From Actinomycetota bacterium (GTDB lineage Bacteria; Actinomycetota; Acidimicrobiia; Acidimicrobiales; MedAcidi-G1): a stretch of 34,820 bases of DNA. The notes below the pieces were generated by a model. It did not search any database. It was not told the origin of the DNA and worked only from the letters and a program-made list of their open reading frames with translations. The stretch spans positions 1 through 34,820 of the forward strand of contig JACNKQ010000058.1 of assembly GCA_014381945.1 (NCBI GenBank), in the 5' to 3' direction. Positions within the stretch are counted from its first letter, which is position 1. The number at the start of each line of letters is the position of its first letter. Of this stretch, positions 3,395-28,293 are shown piece after piece. Made by a program: the position numbers and the translations under genes.

Positions 3395-5068
3395 TCAGGA
3401 CAGGACCCGGACCACGCCCTCCACCGGATCGACCTCGATTCGGTCACCGTCGGCGATCGCATCCATGGCGCCGGCTGCGCCGACGACCGCCGGGATGGCG
3501 AGTTCCCGTGACAACACCGCTGCGTGGCTCATGGGGCCACCTTCGGCGGTGACCAGGCCGCCTACAAGACCAAGTACCAGGTTGTAGGCGGGCGTCGTCG
3601 TGCGGGTGACGAGGACCTCACCCGGTTGGAGCCTCTCGAGTGCCTCGTCGGCATTCTCGGCTACCCGTGCGACGCCCTCGAACGCCGTGTGGCCGATGCC
3701 GGATCCCCGAAGCGGTGGCCTCCCTTCCTGATCACCTTCGTCGACGGGGGTCACCATTCCCAGTTCGGTGAGGCAGGCCAGGATGACGGTCACGGTCTCG
3801 GCGAGTGGACCCGGGAGGGATTCGAGCGCCGGCGTGCCCTCGACGTCGCCCAGGGTCTGCGGGGGATCGAGTGTCTTCTGGCGGGCGCGCTCGGCGGCCC
3901 GTTCGGCCAGGTCGTCGGCGGTCGGCCCGGCGCCGGTTGAGGTCAGGGCGGTGAGCTCAGCGGGCCCCAGTTCGAACACGTGTGCCGCCTCGTGGAACCG
4001 TCCCGAGGCTTCCAGCCGCCGACCTGCCTCGAGCATGGCGAGGCGCAACAGGCCGGCCGGCCATTCTGCTGTGACCGGGCCGTTGTCGTCGCGCAGGTCC
4101 ATGGCCTCGCGGGCCCCTGCCAGCAGGTTGTCGAACCGGTCACGGTCGGATTCCGGAACGCGTGCCCGGAGACCGGCGACGGTGGATGCGAGCAGGTGGG
4201 GATCGTGGGCCCGTTCGTCGGCTCCCGAAAGAATCGTGGCCAATACGATGTTGGGCATCTCGCCGAGTGTGGGGGCGTCGAGGTCGTAGCCGGCGAACAG
4301 CACCGACCCCTGGTGCCTGAGGTAGGTGTCGAGTTCCGCAGACACCTGAGGCGAGATCGCAGCGACCTCGGCGAGGCTGCCCGGTGCAGCTCCGGATGCA
4401 GCGAGCAGACTGCGGATGCGCCGGAGCGCCTCGATAGGTGCGGACGTGGACGGCGAAGCCCCGACGAGCGCAGCAAGCATGTCGCCGCCCGGGATGCCCC
4501 AGCGGTTGCCGGCCACGAGCAGTTGGCCGATCGGTCCAAGGTCGTAGCCGTGGAGACGGAAGTGCTCCTCGAAGGTCCAGCGGATGTGGACTAGCAAATC
4601 GTCGATGTGGTCGGTCAACCCTTCGTCATCGAGGCCCGCCAGGTCGATCGCGCCGAACGCCAGGTTCTGTTCGACGAGTCGTGGACGGGTCTCGGCATGC
4701 CACCTGGCGATGACCGCCGGGGCCGGCGAGTGCTCGAGGTTGCGCCGTGCGGCCCGGGTCCGGCGGCGGAACTCGGGATGGAGCCGAGAGGCGACCTTGA
4801 GGAGGAGAGTCGGCGGCGGCTTCGCCGAGGGCCTGTCGGGCCGGATGAGGGGCCGCATGCGCGTGTAGGTGAACCCGTGCACGAACCGGAACGAGAGCGT
4901 CTCTGCAGGCACGCCGAGGATCGGCCACTGCTTGCGGTAGGCGGCCTGCATGGCCTCGGGCACCAGCCACTGCATGATCGGCGTGGTGCCGCCCGGGAAG
5001 TGCGACCGGTCAAGCTGCCAGTAGCCAGGCCCCGGTGCCGCGAAGGAGTCGGTTGCCTCTGCTGCCAC
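3395..5068 (-). CDS. PEP-utilising-enzyme-like protein with C-terminal phosphohistidine swivel domain, no ATP-grasp
   Basis: A 557-residue protein. Its C-terminus is a PEP-utilisers mobile domain (about residues 470-557) with the GGPMSHAAVLSRE motif. His515 is the residue that would carry the phosphoryl group in PEP synthase, PPDK and rifampin phosphotransferase. The N-terminus (YWQLDRSHFPGGTTPIM) and the helical middle resemble the substrate-binding part of rifampin-phosphotransferase-like proteins. The ATP-grasp domain that normally charges the histidine is absent. The start is GTG 5068, not the GTG three codons earlier: TAGCGT (5081-5076) lies 7 nt upstream and the earlier GTG overlaps that hexamer. 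It is divergent from tmm. A partner ATP-grasp protein elsewhere, or a non-catalytic role, is possible; the substrate is unknown. Confidence 0.8.
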   Translation of the reverse strand: MAAEATDSFAAPGPGYWQLDRSHFPGGTTPIMQWLVPEAMQAAYRKQWPILGVPAETLSFRFVHGFTYTRMRPLIRPDRPSAKPPPTLLLKVASRLHPEFRRRTRAARRNLEHSPAPAVIARWHAETRPRLVEQNLAFGAIDLAGLDDEGLTDHIDDLLVHIRWTFEEHFRLHGYDLGPIGQLLVAGNRWGIPGGDMLAALVGASPSTSAPIEALRRIRSLLAASGAAPGSLAEVAAISPQVSAELDTYLRHQGSVLFAGYDLDAPTLGEMPNIVLATILSGADERAHDPHLLASTVAGLRARVPESDRDRFDNLLAGAREAMDLRDDNGPVTAEWPAGLLRLAMLEAGRRLEASGRFHEAAHVFELGPAELTALTSTGAGPTADDLAERAAERARQKTLDPPQTLGDVEGTPALESLPGPLAETVTVILACLTELGMVTPVDEGDQEGRPPLRGSGIGHTAFEGVARVAENADEALERLQPGEVLVTRTTTPAYNLVLGLVGGLVTAEGGPMSHAAVLSRELAIPAVVGAAGAMDAIADGDRIEVDPVEGVVRVLS

Positions 5069-5075
5069 GACCGCC

Positions 5076-5081
5076 ACGCTA
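5076..5081 (-). promoter_or_regulatory. -10 element TAGCGT (leaderless, minus strand)
   Basis: Read on the minus strand, TAGCGT is followed after 7 nt by the GTG at 5068. It decides the start of the PEP-utilising-like gene. Confidence 0.5.
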
Positions 5082-16609: not shown

Positions 16610-17446
16610 TCAGGCCCTGACCGGATCGCCGCCGACCACCACCGGGAACTGCCGGTCGGGGTCGCTCTGCAGGGAGCGGCCCGTCGGTTGCCCCTTCATC
16701 GGGTCGCCGTCGAGCCGCACGGCCCCGTCGGGGGCGTACTGGAGGATGTAGGTCCTGCGCACATCGTCGGTGGTGTTGGGGCCCGTCATGTGCGGCGTGA
16801 GAGACGAAAACACCACGATGCTTCCCGCCCTTGCCGGAACGGCCACGGCCCCCTCGGGATCCTCGAGGCACTGGTGGCCCAGCGGCTCGATGTAGGTATG
16901 GGCGAGGGTGCCGCCCAGGTGCAGGCCGGGGACGACCCACGGACAGCCGTGCTCGACGGTTGCGTCGACGAGCGGCACCCAGCAGGTGAGGTACTGCTGG
17001 GGTTCGATGTATGTGTAGCCGTTGTCCTGGTGCCACGGGAAGTGCCGGGGCTTCTCCGGATGTTTGTACACGAGCTGGTCCCAGTAGAGGCGCACGTCGT
17101 CGCCGACCAGATCGTGGCAGAGGCCGGCGAACACCGGATGGGCGGCGAACCGGCGGGCCACCTCCGAGGCGAGCACTGCGTGGGGCGAGAACAGGATCGC
17201 CCCGACCTCGGCGATCGAGAGCCGCTCGTCGGGCATCTGGCGCAGGAACGCCTCGGTTGCCGCGGCACGCTCGTCGAGGGCGGTCGCCACCTCCGCGAGG
17301 GTCGCAGCGTCGAGGACGTCCTCGACGAGCACGAAGCCCTGTTCGTGGAAGGCGTCGGCCTGCTCGGCGCTCAGCACCAGCAGGTCGGAGCGTTCGGGGC
17401 GTTGCCAGGCGAAGCCCTCGTTCCAGGGATGGGGATTCGAGTTCAC
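16610..17446 (-). CDS. Phytanoyl-CoA dioxygenase-family (PhyH) Fe(II)/2-oxoglutarate oxygenase
   Basis: A 278-residue double-stranded beta-helix oxygenase. The iron triad is visible: PWHQDN with His139 and Asp141, and distal His219 in LTPHMTGPN; Arg231 in RRTY is placed to bind 2-oxoglutarate. The N-terminal helix FHEQGFVLVEDVLD is typical for PhyH proteins. It would hydroxylate an unactivated carbon of a small molecule. The start is GTG 17446, set by TACGAT 6 nt upstream. It is divergent from a second PhyH gene over a 45-bp gap and convergent with the amidohydrolase (18 bp between stops). The substrate is unknown; PhyH relatives act on lipids, ectoine, quorum signals or phosphonates. Confidence 0.92.
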   Translation of the reverse strand: MNSNPHPWNEGFAWQRPERSDLLVLSAEQADAFHEQGFVLVEDVLDAATLAEVATALDERAAATEAFLRQMPDERLSIAEVGAILFSPHAVLASEVARRFAAHPVFAGLCHDLVGDDVRLYWDQLVYKHPEKPRHFPWHQDNGYTYIEPQQYLTCWVPLVDATVEHGCPWVVPGLHLGGTLAHTYIEPLGHQCLEDPEGAVAVPARAGSIVVFSSLTPHMTGPNTTDDVRRTYILQYAPDGAVRLDGDPMKGQPTGRSLQSDPDRQFPVVVGGDPVRA

Positions 17447-17452
17447 CTGCCG

Positions 17453-17458
17453 ATCGTA
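17453..17458 (-). promoter_or_regulatory. -10 element TACGAT (minus strand) of the divergent PhyH pair
   Basis: On the minus strand TACGAT is followed after 6 nt by the GTG at 17446, with no room for a leader. Confidence 0.55.
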
Positions 17459-17477
17459 GGCACACGGTTCCGGTGGC

Positions 17478-17483
17478 TACGGT
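17478..17483 (+). promoter_or_regulatory. -10 element TACGGT (plus strand) of the divergent PhyH pair
   Basis: TACGGT is followed after 8 nt by the GTG at 17492. It lies 19 bp from the opposing hexamer, about where that promoter's -35 would be, so the two promoters overlap. Confidence 0.55.
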
Positions 17484-17491
17484 GCCGGGCT

Positions 17492-18379
17492 GTGAGGGGC
17501 CTGACCGAACAAGAGTTGGAATCGTGGGAGAGCGACGGGTTCGTCGTCGTACCCGGGTTCGCCGACGCCGCCCGGTGCGCCGCCCTGTGGGACCGGATGG
17601 TCGAGATCAGCCGGAACGCCGAAGGCGGAGGCGACGTGGGCGACGCCCAGGTGGTGCTCGAGCCGGTTCCGGACCCGGCGGCGACCCTCCCGGAGGAAAA
17701 GGTCGGCAAGGTGTTCCGCCTACACCACGAACCGGGCCCCTACGCGGACCTGGCCCACGATCCACGTCTCGGGGGCCTGCTGGGTGACCTGCTGGGCGAC
17801 GACGTCGACTGCTTCCTGTCCCAGTTCATCTTCAAGAACCGTGGCGCCCTGGGCCAGCCGTGGCATCAGGACGCCTGGTACTTCCGGATGGAACCGGGCG
17901 ACCAGGTCGGAGCGTGGCTGGCGGTCACCGAGGCGACGCTCGACAACGGCCCGCTCTGGGTGCTGCCTGGATCACACCGCGAGCCGGTCCACGACGTCGA
18001 GGCAGACAGAAGGCCCGGCGCCCAGTTGGGCTACGTCGAGATCACCGACCACGACACCGGCGATGGCGTGCCGGTGCTGCTGAATGCCGGCGACCTGCTG
18101 CTGTTCCACGCCAACCTGATGCACCGGTCCACCGACAACGCAACCGACGCTCCCCGGGCCGCCATGGTCCTGCACTTCGGTGCCGCCGGCACCCACGACC
18201 CGGCCCTCGATCCCGATCCTGTCGTGCTGGCCGGCTTCCTGCGAAGCCTCGGCCTGGCCGTGGACGAACCCCTGACGCCCGCCATAGAGGCAGCGGTGCG
18301 TTCCAACGTCAGGAACCGGTGGGTGCCGGTCCGCAGAGCCGGTCAGCCGTTTACGGGGGCGGAGGGCAACGGGTCGTAG
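17492..18379 (+). CDS. Phytanoyl-CoA dioxygenase-family (PhyH) oxygenase
   Basis: A 295-residue Fe(II)/2-oxoglutarate oxygenase, clearly distinct in sequence from its divergent neighbour. Motifs: QPWHQDAWYF with His125 and Asp127, distal His211 in LMHRSTDN, and Arg222 (APRAAM) for 2-oxoglutarate. The N-terminus LTEQELESWESDGFVVVPGF is the standard PhyH opening. The start is GTG 17492 following TACGGT; a longer in-frame reading back to 16688 is antisense to the other PhyH gene and is rejected. Its 3' end overlaps the convergent binding-protein gene by 37 bp. The substrate is unknown. Confidence 0.92.
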   Translation: MRGLTEQELESWESDGFVVVPGFADAARCAALWDRMVEISRNAEGGGDVGDAQVVLEPVPDPAATLPEEKVGKVFRLHHEPGPYADLAHDPRLGGLLGDLLGDDVDCFLSQFIFKNRGALGQPWHQDAWYFRMEPGDQVGAWLAVTEATLDNGPLWVLPGSHREPVHDVEADRRPGAQLGYVEITDHDTGDGVPVLLNAGDLLLFHANLMHRSTDNATDAPRAAMVLHFGAAGTHDPALDPDPVVLAGFLRSLGLAVDEPLTPAIEAAVRSNVRNRWVPVRRAGQPFTGAEGNGS

Positions 18380-20226
18380 TAGGGGGACTGTTCGGCCTCG
18401 GGCGCATCCATGTACATCGAGATCGCACCGTCGGGGTCGAACGCCTTCGGCGCTGCCTCGGGCATCTCGCCCAGCAGGTAGCGCACGCCGCCGTCCACGA
18501 ACATGTACATCCCCTCGCCCTCCCGGCGGAGCTCGTCGATCCCGACCTCAGTCGGGTTCCACCACACCTCGGTGACATCGTCCACGCCGCGGTGGTCGGG
18601 CTCGAGGTCGGCCGGCCAGCGGCCCTGGTCTCCGAACGAGATCGACGGAACGGTCACGCCCCGCTGGGTGGGGTTGCCTGTATAGAGGCTGGCGGCGAAG
18701 TTCTCGATGGTGAGGTCGGGCCCGACGGCGGTGAGCACCGAGTAGAACAGCGCCGGGTTCGGGTCGATGATGCCGATCGTGTCGTCGGCAGGCGGCGTTT
18801 TCCCATTCCACCACTCGTAGATGAAGGTGGAACCGCTCTGTCCGGGGGCCACCCGCGCCGAGAGGTTCGAGAGGCCGAAGGCGTTCGCCCACTGCTGCTG
18901 GTCGTAGGTGCGGGCGAACACGTTGGTATCGACCAGGACCGAGCCGGTGAGCACCCATTCGGGGAACCAGCCCTGGTCGGTGGCCTCACGGGTGAAGTCG
19001 CGGGGGGCGATCGGGTCGCCGTTGAAGATCACCGAGTTGACGCCGGCCGCCTTCATCTTGGCGATGACGTTGGCGGCGGTCTCCTGGATCGTCGCCGGGT
19101 CGAGGGCATACGACTCGGAGGCCCCGAGTCCGACGCCGTACCCGGCGAGGGCCTCCTCGAACTGGGCGTTGAGCTCGGTCGAGGCGGCGCTGGCCTCGAG
19201 CCAGATGCGGCCGAAGACCCGTTCCTCACCGTGCATCGACTCGTCGCCGGCATGGATGGCGTTGTCGCCGGCGAGGCGCTTGCCGACGTACTCGGCCACG
19301 AGCAGGTTCAACTGCTCCGGCCCCTTGGAGAGCGACCACCCGTAGGGATGGTGCTCCTCGTAGTAGGCGGCCGACTGGCCGGGCCCGCAGCCGAAACACG
19401 GGATGCCCCTGGCCATGAGCTCCTCGGAGAAGGCGTTGGTGAGCCCGGGCCCGCTCCAGACCATGAAGGGATCGAGGTCCTCGGCGATCTTCACGGCGTC
19501 GGCCCGTGCGGAGATCGGGTCGAGGACCATGCCCGAGCCGGTCATGACGTGGAGTTCGACGGACCGGCCGTAGGTCTCGTAGTACGACTCGTAGTAGGCG
19601 ATCAGGTCGAGCGCCGTCTCCTCGACATCGGCGTTCGTGTCGTCGCTGTCGATGGCATCGGTGATGTACGCCATGATCGGATCGGATTCCATGGGAAGCC
19701 AGTAGACGATGTTGATCGTGTCGGCGGTGACGCCTGGTGCCGTCGCGCCTCCGTTGTCGCCCTCGAAGGGCGCCCAGCAGGCGGTGCGGAAGAACCAGGG
19801 GAGGGCGATCAGGCCGGTATCGGTGTCGCAGCGGGCACCCCAGTCGATGGTGTCCTCGATGCCGAGGTCGGCTGCGGCGGCGTAGGAGAGCACGTGCTCG
19901 GGGAGCCCGGTGCGCGTGTCGATGCCGTCGACGACGACCGGCGCTTCGGTGGTTGTGGGCGCGGCCGTGGTGGTGGGCGCGGCCGTGGTTGTGGGCGCGG
20001 CCGTGGTGGTGGGCGCGGCCGTGGTGGTGGGCGCGGCCGTGGTGGTGGGCGCGGCCGTGGTGGTGGGCGCGGCCGTGGTGGTGGGCGCGGCCGTGGTGGT
20101 GGGCGCGGCCGTGGTGGTGGGCGCGGAGTCTTCGCTGCCGCCACAAGCGGAGGCGATCAGGGCGCATGCCAGAAGGGCGACACCCAGAGTCCCCCGGGTC
20201 GATCGTTCTCTTCGCATCCGTCGCAT
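18343..20226 (-). CDS. Large substrate-binding lipoprotein of a Liv-type ABC transporter
   Basis: A 627-residue lipoprotein, third gene of the transporter operon. The signal peptide (MRRMRRERSTRG then a hydrophobic core) ends in IASAC with Cys28. A linker of ten APTTTA-type repeats would extend it from the membrane. The rest is a type I periplasmic binding protein fold of the LivJ class (GVTADTINIVYWLP, then alternating alpha/beta), considerably longer than the usual 350-400 residues. ATG 20226 is chosen for AGGGGGA just upstream; GTG 20241 is an alternative. The start lies 33 bp after the MFS-LivFG stop. Branched-chain amino acids are the archetypal ligand, but amides, urea or peptides are equally possible. 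It overlaps the convergent PhyH gene by 37 bp. Confidence 0.88.
   Translation of the reverse strand: MRRMRRERSTRGTLGVALLACALIASACGGSEDSAPTTTAAPTTTAAPTTTAAPTTTAAPTTTAAPTTTAAPTTTAAPTTTAAPTTTAAPTTTEAPVVVDGIDTRTGLPEHVLSYAAAADLGIEDTIDWGARCDTDTGLIALPWFFRTACWAPFEGDNGGATAPGVTADTINIVYWLPMESDPIMAYITDAIDSDDTNADVEETALDLIAYYESYYETYGRSVELHVMTGSGMVLDPISARADAVKIAEDLDPFMVWSGPGLTNAFSEELMARGIPCFGCGPGQSAAYYEEHHPYGWSLSKGPEQLNLLVAEYVGKRLAGDNAIHAGDESMHGEERVFGRIWLEASAASTELNAQFEEALAGYGVGLGASESYALDPATIQETAANVIAKMKAAGVNSVIFNGDPIAPRDFTREATDQGWFPEWVLTGSVLVDTNVFARTYDQQQWANAFGLSNLSARVAPGQSGSTFIYEWWNGKTPPADDTIGIIDPNPALFYSVLTAVGPDLTIENFAASLYTGNPTQRGVTVPSISFGDQGRWPADLEPDHRGVDDVTEVWWNPTEVGIDELRREGEGMYMFVDGGVRYLLGEMPEAAPKAFDPDGAISMYMDAPEAEQSPYYDPLPSAPVNG
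19949..20128 (-). repeat. 18-bp tandem repeat, ten copies, coding for a Thr/Ala/Pro linker
   Basis: Ten in-frame units of the 18-bp type GTGGTGGTGGGCGCGGCC (plus-strand reading) lie just after the lipobox of the binding protein. The two divergent GTT units (copies 1 and 3 from the left) are the only clear differences, so the array is nearly homogeneous. Confidence 0.95.
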
Positions 20227-20259
20227 CCATTCCCCCTGCACGTTGGCGGCGCCCGTGGC

Positions 20260-23253
20260 TCAGTCGCCGGTCGGACCCGAACGGGCAATCGTCGCCCGAT
20301 CGGTCCCGAGATAGGAGGCTACGACATCGGGATGGTCCAGCACATAGGCGGGCTCCCCCTCTGCCACCACCGCCCCCTGGTCGAGCGCCACCACCCGGTC
20401 GACGACAGACCGCAGCAGCGCCATGTCGTGCTCGATCACGACCAGGGCGCAGTCGAGTTCGTCCCTGACGCTGTGCAGGACCGGGGCGAGGGCCTCGGCC
20501 TCCCGCTGGGCGATGCCGCTGGACGGCTCGTCCAGGAGCACCACCAACGGCCGGTGGGCGACGACGGCGGCCAGGTCCACGATCCGCCGGGTGCCGGTCG
20601 AGAGCTCGTGGACGAACTTGGAGCGGTACGCCCCGAGCCCCATGAGGTCGACCAGTTCGTCGACCTGTGACGCCACCCGTCGCTCGCTGAGCAGCGCATG
20701 TGGAAGGCGCAGGGCTGCCGAGGCCGGGTCGCGGGAGCGGAGCCTGCGCTCGAGCGAGACGGCCAGCACCTCGTCGACCGTGAGTGCAGGGAACAGTCGG
20801 GCGTCCTGGAACGAACGTCCCAACCCGCGTCGGGCGCGGGCTGAGGCGCTCAGGCCGTGGATCGGCCTGCCGTCGAGGTGCACGGTTCCGGCGTCGGCGG
20901 CGGTGAAGCCGCTCACGAGGTCGAACAGCGTCGTCTTGCCGGCGCCGTTCGGGCCGATCATCCCGAGGATCTCCCGGTGCCTGACATCGAGGTCCACGCC
21001 GTCGACAGCCAGAATGCCGCCGAACGAGCGGACCATGCCCCGGAGCTCGAGGATGCTCTGATCATGCTCGGCGGCAGCGCCGCGATCTGTCAGATCGGAG
21101 GTGGTTGCGGGTGCGGCGAGTTCACCTCCGGTTCCCTGTGCCCGGGCAACGCCGGCAGCGACCCCTTCGAGGAACACGGAGCGCAGAACGTCGGGCCGCT
21201 CGAGGAGCTCGGCCGTCGGCCCGTGGAAGCGGATCTCGCCCTTCTCCATGAAATAGGCCGTCTCGGCGACGGTGAGTGCGATGTTGACGGACTGCTCGAC
21301 GAGGATCACTGTCACACCTTCGGCGGCCAGTTCCTCGACCATCGGCAGGAGCTGCTCGACCACGACGGGGGCCAGCCCCAGGGTCAACTCGTCGATCATG
21401 AGCAGCCGGGGTTTCGACAGGAACGCCATCGCCAGGCCCAGCATCTGCTGCTGACCACCGGAGAGGTCGCCGGAACGGTGGTCGAGTCGGTCGGCCAGGT
21501 GCGGAAACCGCCCGAGCACGTCGGTGATGTCGTCGGAACGCCGGCGACGGTCCAGCCAGGCGGCAGCCCTGAGGTTCTCCCGGACGGTCAGCGACGGGAA
21601 AACCCCGATCCCGCCCGGAAGCTGCGAGACGCCGTGGCCGGCGATCTCGTTGGGTGGGGCGTGGGTGATGTCCCGTCCGTCGAGGATCACCGCACCGCCG
21701 TCGGCCTCGGCGATTCCCGAGATGGCCTTGAGCAGCGTCGACTTGCCGGCGCCGTTGGTGCCCAGCAGTGCGACGATCTCCCCCTCCTGTACCTCGAAGT
21801 CCACGCCGAACAGGACCTGGACGCCGTCGTAGCCGACGTCGAGGCCGCGGCACAGCAGCAGCTTGCGGTCACCGCGTTGACGGGCCAGCAGCACCTCGGA
21901 GCGTGCCGCAGCGGTCTGCCAGACATCGCTGATGTCGCCGGCGATCAGCTTCCCGGCCGAGGCGACGATCAGGCCTCCGATGACGCCGACCGGCAGCATG
22001 ACCACCATGCCGTAGCGGATGCCCCAGTTGTCGGCGATCCAGCCGACGAACGGGAGGACCAGCAGCCCGGGGAGGATCCAGAGCGAACCGATCGAAAACA
22101 CCATCGCCCGCGCACGTGGCGGTGCGACCATCGAGAGGACAGCGAGTATCCCAGGCCCGAGGATGGCCCCGCAGATGATGATCGTGGCCGCAGCCCCGAA
22201 CGCAACGGCCAGGTTCGGAGCCACGGCGTAGAGGACGGCCAGACCACCCTGGACCACAGAGGTCAGTGCTATGAAGCGGAGGACCAGCCCCGGATCACGT
22301 GCGAGCAGCCGTGTGCCGACGCGGGCCCCGATGACCAGGCCGATGACGGCCAGCGGCGCCAACGAGGCTCCGAAGACCGCCCGGGCCCGCACGTCCAGTC
22401 CGAACACCTCCTCCAGGAACAGGATGTTGAGCGACTCGAAGCCGACGAAGGAGATGGTCAGGAAGGGCATTGCGGCGAAGATCCTCCGCAGGGCTGCGAT
22501 CTTCCAGGCCATCCGCCACGCCTCCGCATACGAAGGGGGCGCCTCTTCGATGTCGACCGCCTCGGCCGCTGCGCCGGCGGCCCTGCGCTCATGGGAACCA
22601 CGGATCGGTTCCCTGAGTCGAACGGCGAGGACCACCAGTATCAGGGTGGGAAAGGCGAGGACGAAGAACGGGGCACGCCAACTGATGTAGTAGCCGAGCA
22701 GGCCGGCGGCCAGGACGCCGATGGTTCCACCCACGGGGTTGGCCGCACGATGGAACGAAAACGCCTTCGGGCGGTCAGCCGGGGGGAACCAGTCGGCCAG
22801 CAGCGAGTTGTGGGTCGGGTCGTTGACGGCCTTGCCGATGGCCGAACCCGACCGGGCGAACCCCAGGAACACGATGCCGGTGGCCAGGCCCGTGGAGAAT
22901 GAACAGAATGACCAGGCCACCGCTCCCGCCATGGCGAGGCGGACACGGGGATGGCGGTCGGCCATCCCTGCGATCGGAACCTGGAGGGCGAGTGCAGCGG
23001 CGGCGACGACTGCGATGAGGGTGAGCAGGCCCTGGAAGCCGAGCTCGAACTCGTCCCGGATCTCCGGGGCCAGGATCGCGAATGCGGCACGGTCGAGCTC
23101 GTCGACGGCGTTGAGGCCGAACAGGATGAGCAGCGGGTAGAGGGGCCCGTCGCCTGCGAGCGCCTGAAGCGACGTGACGGGGTGCCGGACGACGTGCAGC
23201 ACGCCGAGCGTGCCCGCCCTGACCTGTGCACCCATGCCGCCTATGCCGCTCAC
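20260..23253 (-). CDS. MFS transporter domain fused to LivF- and LivG-type ATPases
   Basis: A 997-residue three-part fusion. Residues about 35-440 form a major-facilitator domain (twelve helices; GMADRHPRVRLAMAG is the loop 2-3 motif). A LivF-like ATPase follows: Walker A GTNGAGKST (498-506), signature LSGGQQQ, Walker B LLMIDE with the LTLGLAP D-loop. A LivG-like ATPase ends the protein: Walker A GPNGAGKTT (about 767-775), signature LSTGTRR, Walker B VVLLDEPSSGI. Both nucleotide-binding sites look competent. The start overlaps the LivHM stop (GTGA). The ATPases should drive the LivHM channel; the role of the MFS half is unclear and could be a second transport route, a scaffold or a regulator. 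No frameshift or internal stop is seen, so the fusion is real in this sequence. Confidence 0.93.
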   Translation of the reverse strand: MSGIGGMGAQVRAGTLGVLHVVRHPVTSLQALAGDGPLYPLLILFGLNAVDELDRAAFAILAPEIRDEFELGFQGLLTLIAVVAAAALALQVPIAGMADRHPRVRLAMAGAVAWSFCSFSTGLATGIVFLGFARSGSAIGKAVNDPTHNSLLADWFPPADRPKAFSFHRAANPVGGTIGVLAAGLLGYYISWRAPFFVLAFPTLILVVLAVRLREPIRGSHERRAAGAAAEAVDIEEAPPSYAEAWRMAWKIAALRRIFAAMPFLTISFVGFESLNILFLEEVFGLDVRARAVFGASLAPLAVIGLVIGARVGTRLLARDPGLVLRFIALTSVVQGGLAVLYAVAPNLAVAFGAAATIIICGAILGPGILAVLSMVAPPRARAMVFSIGSLWILPGLLVLPFVGWIADNWGIRYGMVVMLPVGVIGGLIVASAGKLIAGDISDVWQTAAARSEVLLARQRGDRKLLLCRGLDVGYDGVQVLFGVDFEVQEGEIVALLGTNGAGKSTLLKAISGIAEADGGAVILDGRDITHAPPNEIAGHGVSQLPGGIGVFPSLTVRENLRAAAWLDRRRRSDDITDVLGRFPHLADRLDHRSGDLSGGQQQMLGLAMAFLSKPRLLMIDELTLGLAPVVVEQLLPMVEELAAEGVTVILVEQSVNIALTVAETAYFMEKGEIRFHGPTAELLERPDVLRSVFLEGVAAGVARAQGTGGELAAPATTSDLTDRGAAAEHDQSILELRGMVRSFGGILAVDGVDLDVRHREILGMIGPNGAGKTTLFDLVSGFTAADAGTVHLDGRPIHGLSASARARRGLGRSFQDARLFPALTVDEVLAVSLERRLRSRDPASAALRLPHALLSERRVASQVDELVDLMGLGAYRSKFVHELSTGTRRIVDLAAVVAHRPLVVLLDEPSSGIAQREAEALAPVLHSVRDELDCALVVIEHDMALLRSVVDRVVALDQGAVVAEGEPAYVLDHPDVVASYLGTDRATIARSGPTGD

Positions 23254-25319
23254 GTCGTGGCCTCCGGCTCGGGAACTGCGTCGAGGCGGTCTTCAGTGAA
23301 TCCGGGCGCCTCGATGCCCCTGTGTACCGCAAGGCGGGACAGCGCAGCGTCGCGCAGTTGGTAGATGCCGCCGGCCAGGCCGCCCGGAAGGATCAGCAGC
23401 ACGAGCAGGACGCCGCCACCGGTGGCGAGCAGGCGCCAGGTGCCGGGCAGCCACCAGATGCCGCCCCAGTACCAGAGGGCACCGACGGCGGCGCCCAGCA
23501 GCGAGCCCAGCCCGCCGGCCACCCCGGACACGAAGATGGAGAGGCTGCCCTCGGCGCCACGACCGTCCATGACGAGTGCCTGCTGGTGGTGGACCGACAG
23601 CGACCCGGATGCGGCAGCGATGAAGCCCGAGATCCCGAACGCCATGAGCTTCGCCCGCCTGGCGCTGACCCCGAACGCCTCGAGCGCAGCCTCGTTCTCA
23701 CGCAGGGCTATCAGGACCCGACCCGTGCGGCTGCGCCGGATGCCTGCCACTGCGATGAAGGTCAGCGTCATCGCCACCAGGCTCACGTGGTACATGGCAA
23801 ACGAACTCTCCCAGCCGATGCGCCCGAGGATCGGGTGCCGCTCGATCCTCCCCGAGGGGAGCCAATCGAAAAAACGCGGGTTCAACAGGTAGGCGGTGAC
23901 TGCCACGGCGAAAGCCAGGGTGGTGACCGCCAGGTACATGCCGCGCACCCGCAGTGCGGGAAACCCGACCACGAGCGCAGCGACAAGGCCACAGCATCCG
24001 GCCAGCAGCGTGGCGAGGATGATGTCGGCACCCCATTGCTGGGTGGCGTGTGCGCCCGCCACCGATCCGACGGCGACGAACGCAATCTGTCCGAGCGAGA
24101 TCTGACCGGCCCATCCGGTGAGCACCACCAGCGAGACCAGGACCATGGTCATCAGGTACAGGAACGACAGGCGCAGCACGTGCTCGGTGCCGAGGTGGTG
24201 GGGGAGCGTCAGCAGGAACGCCCCCAGGGCGAGCAGCGCCGACCAGCGTGCGATTCGGACCTCCGGCAGGCGCCGCAGCACATCGGGGAGTCGCCGCACC
24301 TCGCCGATGGCCCGGAAGGCCCCCAACTCCAACTCACCGCGTTCGGGACGGACCTTGCGCAGGATCAGGGCGACGATGATCACAGCCGCCATCAGGGCGT
24401 CGCCGACGAGGGAACTGGACTGGTTCCAGTCGACCCCCATGTGCAGGATCCCGAGCGCAATCGAAGAGCACAGGACCGTCGGAAGGTGTTCGAGCCTTCC
24501 GATCACCAGTGCGGCCAGCGCCCGCAGAAGGAGCCCGACGCCGAGGGATCCCGCCACCGGGAGCCCAATGACGCCGGCGCGCAGGAACAGCGCCAGGAAC
24601 GCCAGGGTCCCGGCGATGGCCCACACCAGCGTCTGGATCGCCTTGACCGGGATACCCAGGGAGTTCGCCCGGTCGGGGCGTTCGGCGGCGGCACGTACAG
24701 CGATGCCGAGGTCCGTGTATCGCAGCAGCGCACCGACCCCCAGCAGCACGAGGGGGGCAACCACCAGGACCAGGAGGTGGTCGGAGCTGAGGCGGATCGG
24801 GCCCACATCCCAGACGGCGTCGATCGGCACGTCGATGCGTTGCGATACGACCTTCGAGTCCCACCACTTCGGCATCCAAAGGGCCAGGAAGCCGAGCGCC
24901 TGTGCGAGGCCGAGCGTCGCCACGGTCAGGACCAGGCGTGGGGCGCGGAAGAAGCGCCGGATGACCAGGAACTCGGAGGCGCCACCGAGGGCGAACGACG
25001 CCACCAGACCGACGACGAGGGCGAGCAGCCACGGCAGGCCGGTCTCGGTGATCAGCATGACGGCCAGGACTGCGGGAATGAGCCCCAGCTCTCCCTGGGC
25101 GAAGTTGATCACCCGGTTGGCCCGGTAGACCAGGAACATCCCCAACGCCACGAGTGAGGTGATCAGGCCCAGGACGGCGCCGTTGATTAGAACTCCGGCG
25201 GGAGCCCCGAAGAACGCCAACTGCACGGCCAGGATGAGGAGCGGCCCTGCCAGCCAGGCGACCCGTTTCCCTAAGATCTGCGTGCGGGGCAGCGACAGCG
25301 CCCCTTGATCCACCCCCAT
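23250..25319 (-). CDS. LivH-LivM fused ABC permease
   Basis: A 689-residue fusion of both channel subunits of a branched-chain amino-acid-type importer. The LivH half (about residues 25-325) has the conserved FLVYRANRVINFAQGELG segment and the coupling loop AVRAAAERPDRANSLGIPV. The LivM half (about 370-665) has LTGWAGQISLGQIAFVAVGS and RTGRVLIALRENEAALEAFG, its coupling loop. Separate genes of about 290 and 320-400 residues are the norm. First gene of the operon. ATG 25319 lies 9 nt after TAGTGT (leaderless-like), but GGAGG sits 7 nt before an in-frame GTG at 25313, so that start is an alternative. The neighbour gene product supplies the ATPases. Confidence 0.93.
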   Translation of the reverse strand: MGVDQGALSLPRTQILGKRVAWLAGPLLILAVQLAFFGAPAGVLINGAVLGLITSLVALGMFLVYRANRVINFAQGELGLIPAVLAVMLITETGLPWLLALVVGLVASFALGGASEFLVIRRFFRAPRLVLTVATLGLAQALGFLALWMPKWWDSKVVSQRIDVPIDAVWDVGPIRLSSDHLLVLVVAPLVLLGVGALLRYTDLGIAVRAAAERPDRANSLGIPVKAIQTLVWAIAGTLAFLALFLRAGVIGLPVAGSLGVGLLLRALAALVIGRLEHLPTVLCSSIALGILHMGVDWNQSSSLVGDALMAAVIIVALILRKVRPERGELELGAFRAIGEVRRLPDVLRRLPEVRIARWSALLALGAFLLTLPHHLGTEHVLRLSFLYLMTMVLVSLVVLTGWAGQISLGQIAFVAVGSVAGAHATQQWGADIILATLLAGCCGLVAALVVGFPALRVRGMYLAVTTLAFAVAVTAYLLNPRFFDWLPSGRIERHPILGRIGWESSFAMYHVSLVAMTLTFIAVAGIRRSRTGRVLIALRENEAALEAFGVSARRAKLMAFGISGFIAAASGSLSVHHQQALVMDGRGAEGSLSIFVSGVAGGLGSLLGAAVGALWYWGGIWWLPGTWRLLATGGGVLLVLLILPGGLAGGIYQLRDAALSRLAVHRGIEAPGFTEDRLDAVPEPEATT

Positions 25320-25328
25320 GCCTCCGGG

Positions 25329-25334
25329 ACACTA
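25329..25334 (-). promoter_or_regulatory. -10 element TAGTGT of the transporter operon
   Basis: On the minus strand TAGTGT is followed after 9 nt by ATG 25319. It faces TACGGT of the divergent gene at a distance of 20 bp. Confidence 0.45.
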
Positions 25335-25354
25335 GTGCCGGGCAGCGATGCCAC

Positions 25355-25360
25355 TACGGT
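25355..25360 (+). promoter_or_regulatory. -10 element TACGGT of the second PEP-utilising-like gene (leaderless)
   Basis: TACGGT is followed after 7 nt by the ATG at 25368, which fixes that start within a longer open frame. Confidence 0.55.
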
Positions 25361-25367
25361 CCGACGG

Positions 25368-27140
25368 ATGCTGCCGCCCGACGAGCGCCTCCCGTTCGAG
25401 TTGGTCGACTTCGGGCTGGGCCCCTACGTCCACGGCCGGCCGAGTCGACGGTTTCCCGTCTACACGCGGGGCAACGCCGGCGAGGTATACCCGGAGGTGG
25501 TGTTCCCCCTGACCTCCTCGATGTCGGTGGCGCTGGCCGGCGACCCGGCCCGCGATGCGATGCTCGCCACGGGGATGATGACGGCCGCCGAGTGTGACGA
25601 GGACGCCGATGTCCACATGGGCGTGTTCGGTGGCTACACCTACCTCAACCTCTCGGTGTCGAGGGTCATCGCCGTGCGCACACCTGGTACGACCATCGCC
25701 GAGACCGACGCCACCTTCCTCGGCTCCGAGGACATCGCCCCGCCTCACGTTGGGCAACGGGGCGACCGCAACCTCATGGCGACGGTGCGGGGGATCAGGT
25801 ACGGGCTCTCGATGCTCGCCGGCGGGCCGCTGTCGGGCTTCGAATCCGATCGTTCCGAGGTGGCGGCATGGCGCCGGTCGCTTCCCGAAGCAGCCACGGC
25901 CTCCGACGATGACCTCGTCGCCCTGGTCGAGGGTGCCATCGTGATGCTCAGTCGGATGTTCGGAAACCACCTGCTGGTCTCCGGTGGCGCCGCCGCCGGG
26001 CTGGGCCTTCTGCGTCGTGTCTGCGAGAAGCGCCTGGACGACGCAGACCTGGCGCTGACCCTGTTGGCGGGCCTCGGCGACGTGGCCTCGGCGCAGCCCT
26101 CCTGGGATCTCTGGGAACTCGGGCGAATGGTCACCGAATCGGCAGAGGTGACCGCCTGCTTCGAGTCGGGCCTGGAAGGCCTCGAGGATCGCCTGAGGGC
26201 AGAACCGACGGCGGCAGAATTCGTCGTTGCCTTCGACGCCTTCCTCGAACGCCACGGTGCCCGGGGGCCCAACGAGTGGGAGATGGCCTGCGAGGTGTGG
26301 GACACCGACCACCGGTACCCGCTGGCGTTGGTCGACCGGATGCGGGTCGCCGGTCCCGACCATGCCCCGGCGGTCAGGGCAGCCCTGCTTGCGACGGAGA
26401 GCGAGGCGGCGTTGGTCGCTGCCCGCAGCCGGTTGCGTCGCCGGCACCGTCGCTGGTTCGACCGTTGCCTGGAGTCCGCCGGGTCGTACACGCGCGCCCG
26501 GGAAGCCGGCAAGGAGCACCTCGTCGAACTCATCCACGAATGCCGCCTGGCCCTGCACGAGCTGGGGCGGCGCCTCGCAGAACGGGCGGGCGGAGCGCCG
26601 GATGACATCTGGTACGTCCTCTACACGGAACTCGACGACTACCGGAGCGATCCGGCTTCGCTGGCAGGGGTCGTGGCCGGGCGTCGGCGGACACGCGAGA
26701 TGCTGTCCGAGCTGGTGCCCCCTTTCGCCTTCGACGCAGAGATGCCGCCGGTATCGACATGGGAGCGGCGATCCGACTCGGAGATCGTGCCCGTGCCGGT
26801 CGGATCGGTCCTCGCCGGAATAGCCGGATGCCCCGGCGTGGCAACAGGGCGTGCCCGGGTGGTGCTCGATCCCTCGCAGCCCGGAGACCTCGGTCCGGGC
26901 GACGTGCTCATAGCGCCGTTCACGGATCCGAGTTGGACACCGCTGTTCGTGCCCGTCGAGGCGGTCGTGGTCGACGTGGGCGGCCAGATGAGCCATGCCG
27001 TCATCGTGTCGCGCGAGTTCGGCCTGCCGTGCGTGGTGGCCGTGACCGGAGCGACCACATCGATACCGGACGGGGCTCTCGTCGAGGTCGACGGCACCGC
27101 CGGCACGGTTACGGTGCTGGAAGGGTCGGTCTCCGGCTAG
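25368..27140 (+). CDS. PEP-utilising-enzyme-like protein with phosphohistidine swivel domain, no ATP-grasp (second copy)
   Basis: A 590-residue protein with the same plan as the one at 3395: an N-terminal rifampin-phosphotransferase/PEP-synthase-like middle region (LPPDERLPFELVDFGLGPYV start, then mainly helical with many Arg) and a C-terminal swivel domain (about 495-580) with DVGGQMSHAVIVSREFGLP and His543. No ATP-grasp domain is present, so the histidine cannot be charged by this protein alone. The two copies are only distantly similar outside the last domain, so they are old paralogues or separate acquisitions. It is divergent from the Liv-type transporter operon by 48 bp and its stop overlaps that of the small convergent gene by four bases. 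Substrate unknown. Confidence 0.82.
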   Translation: MLPPDERLPFELVDFGLGPYVHGRPSRRFPVYTRGNAGEVYPEVVFPLTSSMSVALAGDPARDAMLATGMMTAAECDEDADVHMGVFGGYTYLNLSVSRVIAVRTPGTTIAETDATFLGSEDIAPPHVGQRGDRNLMATVRGIRYGLSMLAGGPLSGFESDRSEVAAWRRSLPEAATASDDDLVALVEGAIVMLSRMFGNHLLVSGGAAAGLGLLRRVCEKRLDDADLALTLLAGLGDVASAQPSWDLWELGRMVTESAEVTACFESGLEGLEDRLRAEPTAAEFVVAFDAFLERHGARGPNEWEMACEVWDTDHRYPLALVDRMRVAGPDHAPAVRAALLATESEAALVAARSRLRRRHRRWFDRCLESAGSYTRAREAGKEHLVELIHECRLALHELGRRLAERAGGAPDDIWYVLYTELDDYRSDPASLAGVVAGRRRTREMLSELVPPFAFDAEMPPVSTWERRSDSEIVPVPVGSVLAGIAGCPGVATGRARVVLDPSQPGDLGPGDVLIAPFTDPSWTPLFVPVEAVVVDVGGQMSHAVIVSREFGLPCVVAVTGATTSIPDGALVEVDGTAGTVTVLEGSVSG

Positions 27141-27415
27141 CAGTCGACGAGGCGCTCGAACACGAACTCGTAGTCGAGGTAGGCGTTGAGGTGTTCCTGA
27201 CCGGCCGGCGGCGCGATGAGCTGTGCCGACTGCAGCAGACGCCATCCGTCGCGCAGGGCTTCCACTCCGGTGTCGTAGGGGGGCTTCCCGTCCGCCACCT
27301 CGGGTAGCCCCTCGACGCTGCCGTCCGACCCGTCGTGGAACGCCCAGGCCACCACGTTCGAGTCGAGCGCCGAGCCGTTGGCCCACAGGTAGAGGACCTG
27401 CTGGTGGGCGGTCAT
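27137..27415 (-). CDS. Small hypothetical protein coupled to a PhyH gene
   Basis: A 92-residue protein I do not recognise. It is soluble-looking, with a Trp/Ala-rich start (VLYLWANGSALDSNVVAWAFHDG), a charged middle (KPPYDTGVEALRDGWRLLQSAQ) and a C-terminal part EHLNAYLDYEFVFERL that resembles the end of small alpha/beta proteins; the final residue is Cys. There is no signal peptide or membrane helix. Its ATG overlaps the stop of the PhyH gene by four bases, so it is translated with it and may serve as a partner or act on the same substrate. Its stop overlaps the convergent gene stop by four bases. Confidence 0.75.
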   Translation of the reverse strand: MTAHQQVLYLWANGSALDSNVVAWAFHDGSDGSVEGLPEVADGKPPYDTGVEALRDGWRLLQSAQLIAPPAGQEHLNAYLDYEFVFERLVDC

Positions 27416-28293
27416 CGGTCCACCAGCTTCGCCCGGCCCTCGAGCCGGGTCAGGTAGTGGTCGACGTCGTAGGAGTCGTCACCGGTCAGGTAGCGCCACA
27501 GCCGTGCCCGCTGCACCTGCTCGTTGCGGTATGTCGTGACGCCGTGCCAGGGGTGCCAGGCCCGGAAGGTGTGGGCGACGCTGTCGGGTTGCATCCGGGC
27601 GAACACGTGGTCGGAGGGGTCGTTGTGGAGTTCGGCCAGGTCGGCGGTGTCCCAGTGGAGCACCTGGGGCTGTGTCGGGTTCAGGCGGATCTTGTGCATC
27701 CAGCGGTCGTCGGGGCCGGGGTTGGGCTGGCCGGCATGCCAGAGACCGTGGTGGAACACCAGGACGGTCCCGGCGGGTCCGGTGAACCGCTCCTCGCCGG
27801 CGATGTGCTGGTAGCGGTCCAGGGCCGACGGCTGGATGCGATGCAGGTGGCTGCCCGGCACGAAGCGGGTACCGCCCTCGTCTGGCTGCACCTCGTGGGG
27901 GAACCAGAAGAGTTGGATGTCGAAGGTCGGGTCGTCGGAGTCGATGATGGCATCGGCGTGGAGGTGCTGCCCGTCGGTGGTCCCGGCGGCGATGTGGTGG
28001 GTCCAGTCGTGGTCGAAGGTGGGGTCGGGGCCCAGCAGCGACCGGATGATGCCCTGCACGGCGGGGAGCCGCAGGTACTCGCCGATCACCGAGGGCGGCG
28101 GGTAGCACCCCTCCAGTGGCGTACCGGTAGCCGGGGGTCGCAGCCCGTCGCCGGCGAAGCGCTCGTCCCTGAGGCGCCCCATTTCGTCGATCGCCCGGTG
28201 GTTGATGTCGTCGGGGACAAGTGCGTCGAAGCGCAGGTAGCCGTCGGCCACGAACGACGCCATCTGGCGGGTTGTGAGCAGATTGCCGACCAT
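27412..28293 (-). CDS. Phytanoyl-CoA dioxygenase-family (PhyH) oxygenase, third in window
   Basis: A 293-residue Fe(II)/2-oxoglutarate oxygenase. His112 and Asp114 (QHLHADAI) and distal His186 (HHGLWHAGQPN) form the iron triad, and Arg203 (HKIRLNP) or Arg197 can bind the cosubstrate. N-terminus LTTRQMASFVADGYLRFDALV is PhyH-like. The middle sequence FDIQLFWFPHEVQPDEGGTRFVPGSH is the conserved barrel core. It differs from both divergent PhyH proteins at 16610-18379 and belongs to another subgroup. The ATG at 28293 has TAGGTT 6 nt upstream. It forms a two-gene operon with the 92-residue protein. Confidence 0.9.
   Translation of the reverse strand: MVGNLLTTRQMASFVADGYLRFDALVPDDINHRAIDEMGRLRDERFAGDGLRPPATGTPLEGCYPPPSVIGEYLRLPAVQGIIRSLLGPDPTFDHDWTHHIAAGTTDGQHLHADAIIDSDDPTFDIQLFWFPHEVQPDEGGTRFVPGSHLHRIQPSALDRYQHIAGEERFTGPAGTVLVFHHGLWHAGQPNPGPDDRWMHKIRLNPTQPQVLHWDTADLAELHNDPSDHVFARMQPDSVAHTFRAWHPWHGVTTYRNEQVQRARLWRYLTGDDSYDVDHYLTRLEGRAKLVDR

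Follow-up and report, generated by a model that had tools for sequence, protein, structure and literature searches.

We found that a 997-residue protein joining a Spinster-like MFS carrier to LivF- and LivG-type ATPases belongs to a genuine variant of LIV-type ABC importers that is widespread and, it appears, has not been described before. It is encoded on a 34,820-nucleotide stretch of an Acidimicrobiales contig (hereafter, the window, which denotes the whole stretch analyzed), as the middle gene of a tight operon whose three genes lie head to tail in the order LivHM, MFS-LivF-LivG and lipoprotein:

23250..25319, minus strand: LivH-LivM permease fusion, 689 aa, the partner permease (two BPD_transp_2 domains, Pfam)
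20260..23253, minus strand: MFS-LivF-LivG fusion protein, 997 aa (ORF, Pfam and NCBIfam; start supported by GTGA and GGAGG)
18343..20241, minus strand: lipoprotein substrate-binding protein candidate, 632 aa (assigned by its conserved place in the operon)

The fusion frame opens with a GTG codon and contains no internal stop. Its start overlaps the LivHM stop in a GTGA, and a GGAGG is located at 23265-23261, seven bases 5' of the GTG. Pfam assigned MFS_1 to residues 46-350 (E = 3.5e-34) together with two ABC_tran stretches, and NCBIfam placed a UrtE/LivF-like match at residues 469-683, followed by a LivG-like match at 732-984. The claim of the preliminary description that one frame holds all three domains is thus borne out by both family searches, by the start signals within the operon and by relatives in many species. 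BPD_transp_2 matched LivHM in two stretches (177.5 bits). The lipoprotein candidate matched nothing in Pfam or NCBIfam and had no meaningful sequence match in the PDB; its place in the operon is conserved. An 18-base tandem repeat at 19949-20126 (9.9 copies, 98% matches) encodes an Ala/Pro/Thr-rich spacer following the lipoprotein signal of this candidate.

In a scan of approximately 85,000 species genomes, 80 loci from other genomes were kept, with identities of 44-89%. By their titles, essentially all came from Acidimicrobiia or other Actinomycetota; two carry the names of different groups and could be bins with a wrong label. The three-domain fusion was found again in 92 or more distinct relatives, a LivHM-type ORF lies 5' of it wherever the contig of an 80-set locus extends that far upstream, and a related binding-protein gene lies 3' of or close to it in most loci. 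The MFS subfamily occurred in 65 of the 198 genomes and 46 of the 104 genera of the class sample (E below 1e-20), where strong matches were nearly all inside long fused frames, and in 20 of the 396 genomes of the phylum sample (E below 1e-25), of which seven lie beyond this class. Embleya (Streptomycetaceae) carries a diverged MFS-LivF, the sole plasmid match covering most of the query. The window belongs to a draft genome of 78 contigs, which is what would favor an assembly, frameshift or gene-prediction artefact; against it stand the uninterrupted frame with its start signals and the three-domain relatives, one of which sits in a complete genome (CP011489). With the same fusion found in relatives, most of which also share the neighbors, we rejected an artefact, whose probability we regard as practically nil, and the possibility raised earlier that the halves are always separate, with an error at the junction, fell away likewise. 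Our literature searches found no paper on the MFS-LivF-LivG architecture, and the Foldseek matches listed for the whole model, filled by ABC chains, included no MFS-plus-ABC chain.

The fusion protein is divided as follows:

21958..23148, minus strand: Spinster-like MFS domain, residues 36-432, 12 TM helices (Pfam MFS_1, AF2, VIA and profile match)
21865..21957, minus strand: MFS-LivF junction helix, residues 433-463, of constant length and with D440 and G461 invariant (alignment; predicted helix 434-459)
21163..21864, minus strand: LivF-type ATPase, residues 464-697, with Walker A, LSGGQ, Walker B Asp-Glu and an H-loop Gln
21061..21162, minus strand: LivF-LivG linker, residues 698-731, disordered, with a length that varies (pLDDT under 50 at 691-730)
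20299..21060, minus strand: LivG-type ATPase, residues 732-985, with Walker A, Walker B Asp-Glu, an H-loop His and LSTG(S/T)

The two connections within the chain differ sharply. From D440, just after TM12, to the LivF Walker A there are 58 residues in 64 of the 68 relatives and 59 in the remaining four, whereas the LivF-LivG linker ranges from 40 to 105 residues. The junction is nearly constant in length in the more distant MFS-LivF class as well. In the predicted model, a single helix (434-459) runs directly into LivF, and the LivF-LivG stretch is disordered; the full-length 997-residue model reached a pTM of 0.65, so that domain placement is unsure. A constant junction beside a varying linker is the strongest hint that geometry has been selected, beyond mere tethering, although packing constraints alone could fix the junction. 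D440 is also present in stand-alone MFS proteins, and it is therefore part of the MFS fold and no argument for contact with LivF.

Other layouts of the same parts were found. A second system in the genome of the window has the MFS fused to LivF only, with LivG on the LivHM C-terminus; other genomes encode LivHM and LivF-LivG without an MFS, or a single LivHM-LivF-LivG chain. Such single-chain importers (L152, L156-L160, L165 and L166) have open frames of 1,237-1,361 residues. Given the supported branches of the LivF-LivG tree, the MFS label must have changed five times or more, a count that cannot separate gain from loss at every node. A single clade of all MFS-bearing sequences was rejected (p-AU ~1e-117), and the MFS-free sequences L151, L155, L164 and L150 are nested within MFS-bearing groups. 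Conversely, three stand-alone MFS proteins (L140, L141 and L129/L146), which retain most of the key residues described below, are nested in the tree of MFS fusions, where two changes are needed. The MFS half is therefore a module that joins, leaves and can exist by itself, and it is an accessory, as the importer has close relatives without it.

The MFS half was predicted by AlphaFold as a complete 12-helix fold (residues 13-462; pLDDT 93.7, pTM 0.90), so the degenerate helices considered in the preliminary description do not occur. The first five Foldseek matches of this half were all Spns structures. VIA alignment to human Spns1 (9boi) gave Z = 40.2 with an rmsd of 3.1 over 402 residues; Z scores to Spns1 were 39-40, and those to other MFS families were lower by merely a few units. 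By sequence, the top PDB match was HnSpns (E = 4e-15 for the single sequence and 4.7e-30 for the profile). In comparisons with four close relatives, the MFS half had a dN/dS of 0.10-0.24, within the range of LivF and LivG, indicating strong purifying selection.

In HnSpns, the switch for proton and substrate consists of Asp41, Arg42, Arg122 and Glu129, the last acting as master switch, and the motif-A relay is made up of Asp87-Arg91-Asp142; E129Q perturbs that transporter (PMC9440201). The Spns1 mutants E164A/K likewise perturb theirs. Two segments of the window correspond to parts of this switch:

23089..23103, minus strand: TM1 motif D51-E52-L53-D54-R55 (D54 and R55 align with HnSpns D41 and R42)
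22831..22833, minus strand: K141 in TM4, aligned with E129, the proton switch of HnSpns (112 relatives)

Examination of the proton and substrate residues, as suggested earlier, gave a divided answer across 112 relatives of the MFS half. The motif-A relay (D99, R103 and D154) is present in 111-112 of them, D54 in 100, R55 in 83 and R134, equivalent to HnSpns Arg122, in 107, but the Glu129 switch is not kept: its site is Lys in 62, Arg in 21, Gln in 14, Ala in 3 and Glu in only 3 relatives. Nor is the periplasmic Spinster salt bridge between Asp60 (TM2) and Arg289 (TM7) found in the window, which has F73 and E282 there (alignment to the HMMER fragment of 6e8j); among relatives, the first site is Asp in 21 of 112 and the second is Arg in 9 of 112. 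The half has new conserved charged residues, D51, E52, H148 and H168. D54, R55, H148 or H168 are lost in various combinations in L029, L030, L134 and the MFS-LivF class, and the cavity is therefore not uniform. E52 (23098-23100) and K/R141 tend to disappear together (raw counts 82/15/1/14); after phylogeny-corrected pairing, the co-loss gave p ~0.06, and a possible charge pairing of E52 with K141, strong in the raw counts, is only a lead. The substitution at the Glu129 site suggests that the carrier is not driven via the canonical Spinster switch.

Both ATPases were previously described as having intact Walker and signature motifs. Both Walker A/B pairs are indeed intact, but only LivF has the canonical signature. 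Its motifs are GTNGAGKS, LSGGQQQ and Asp-Glu, and a Gln occupies the position of the switch His. LivG has GPNGAGKT, Asp-Glu and His, and its signature LSTG(S/T)RR (20581-20607 in the window), found in nearly all of 68 relatives, departs family-wide from LSGGQ. LivF- and LivG-like subunits usually pair as ABC heterodimers. If they pair so here, one ATP site is consensus, built of the LivG Walker A, Walker B and His with the LivF LSGGQ, and the other is degenerate.

The surroundings did not indicate a single pathway. No dominant family was found among the 92 nearest flanking genes, and we rejected one shared substrate pathway on that ground. Acyl-CoA synthetase-like or AMP-binding genes lie beside stand-alone MFS relatives (L140, 5814-7907; L141, 3461-5929; L149, 5247-6881). 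They are a possible substrate hint, too few to rely on, and in L140 and L141, two of the three stand-alone genes, the label comes from sequence and not from a family search. In the window, a PEP-utilising mobile domain is the only Pfam match at 25305-27140 and at 3395-5077; one of these two proteins flanks the operon, as do similar proteins in L040 and L043. Three PhyH-type (phytanoyl-CoA dioxygenase-like) oxygenases are also encoded near the operon (16610-17446, within 16688-18379, and 27412-28293).

We favor, with moderate confidence, the reading that a complete Spinster-like carrier works aboard a LIV-type importer complex and is not merely an anchor. The operon would encode a LIV-type (HAAT) importer made up of LivHM, its paired LivF/LivG ATPases and a binding protein, plus an extra transmembrane subunit, the Spinster-like MFS, welded to the LivF N-terminus via the fixed-length helix. 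LivHM would form the ATP-driven import path, and the MFS half would be an alternating-access carrier within the same complex that operates without the canonical Spinster Glu proton switch. Its solute may be the same or a related one, probably anionic or amphipathic, handled by exchange, return or a second path, and its gate may be mechanically influenced by the ATPase cycle. The other system of this genome, in which the parts are joined differently but the MFS again sits on LivF, was counted in favor of this explanation. Counted against it were the MFS-free LivF-LivG importers, in which the ABC core manages without the MFS, so that coupling could amount to co-localisation alone. In a bolder and less likely version, the ABC ATPases would gate or drive the alternating access of the MFS: with the Spinster Glu switch given up and the half rigidly joined to LivF, one ATPase pair would serve both the LivHM and the MFS pathways in a single complex.

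The carrier may instead be independent and tethered to the importer for co-expression or co-localisation, without energetic coupling to LivFG, a reading that we consider less likely. It would fit the four or more nested relatives that have the ABC core but no MFS, and the three cases of an MFS without the ABC; moreover, one switch-residue substitution need not end proton coupling, since TM1 has gained the conserved acids D51 and E52. One would expect a pure tether to vary, however, and the junction measures 58-59 residues in all 68 relatives, where D440 and G461 never change. The MFS half could also be a non-transporting membrane scaffold or a transceptor-like solute sensor, with a regulating or anchoring role toward LivFG. 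The loss of the canonical proton switch, the missing Asp60:Arg289 bridge in the window and the lack of the MFS in some close relatives of the importer point in that direction, but the motif-A relay, which is required for alternating access, is near-invariant, stand-alone MFS proteins survive with most of the same residues, and the ATPases are already anchored by LivHM; together with the predicted complete fold and the strong purifying selection on this half, these make a scaffold or sensor unlikely. The membrane anchor proposed in the preliminary description is accordingly disfavored: the apparently intact fold, the carrier residues under purifying selection and the stand-alone copies speak against a degenerate anchor, without proving transport.

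The system shares with LIV/HAAT importers (LivKHMGF; TC 3.A.1.4) and the urea importer UrtABCDE a LivH/LivM-type permease and LivF- and LivG-type ATPases; next to these it has a candidate for the extracellular binding protein. Unlike in LIV/HAAT, the permeases are fused together, the ATPases are fused together, an MFS carrier precedes LivF, the LivG signature is LSTG(S/T), and the binding-protein candidate is too divergent for Pfam. With the Spinster proteins (HnSpns 6e8j, human Spns1 9boi and SPNS2) it has in common the fold, the TM1 Asp-Arg, the TM4 Arg and the motif-A relay, whereas Lys, Arg or Gln mostly stands in for E129, the Asp60:Arg289 bridge is missing, D51, E52, H148 and H168 are new, and the carrier is fused to ATPases. 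When coupled to the ArsA ATPase, the secondary carrier ArsB is able to run on ATP, a case of dual energy coupling (PMC4979069). ArsAB is a functional analogue in idea only; we claim no homology, ATP dependence would be hypothetical for the MFS here, and the present ATPases possess their own ABC permease partner. A sensor kinase-MFS fusion family (TC 2.A.1.34) is listed in transporter surveys (PMC3924187). It also combines an MFS with a cytosolic catalytic partner, a kinase there and an ABC ATPase here; the two are compared solely in their architecture.

Secondary carriers and ABC pumps are assigned to different energy classes. In the present system, a carrier and an ABC pump are joined by a conserved junction in many species, the carrier has been removed or freed several times, and its proton-switch residue has changed. 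Systems with the MFS, systems without it and the MFS alone form a natural set for testing if ATPases are able to power or gate a fold of the MFS kind, and for learning what advantage a carrier on board brings to an ABC importer.
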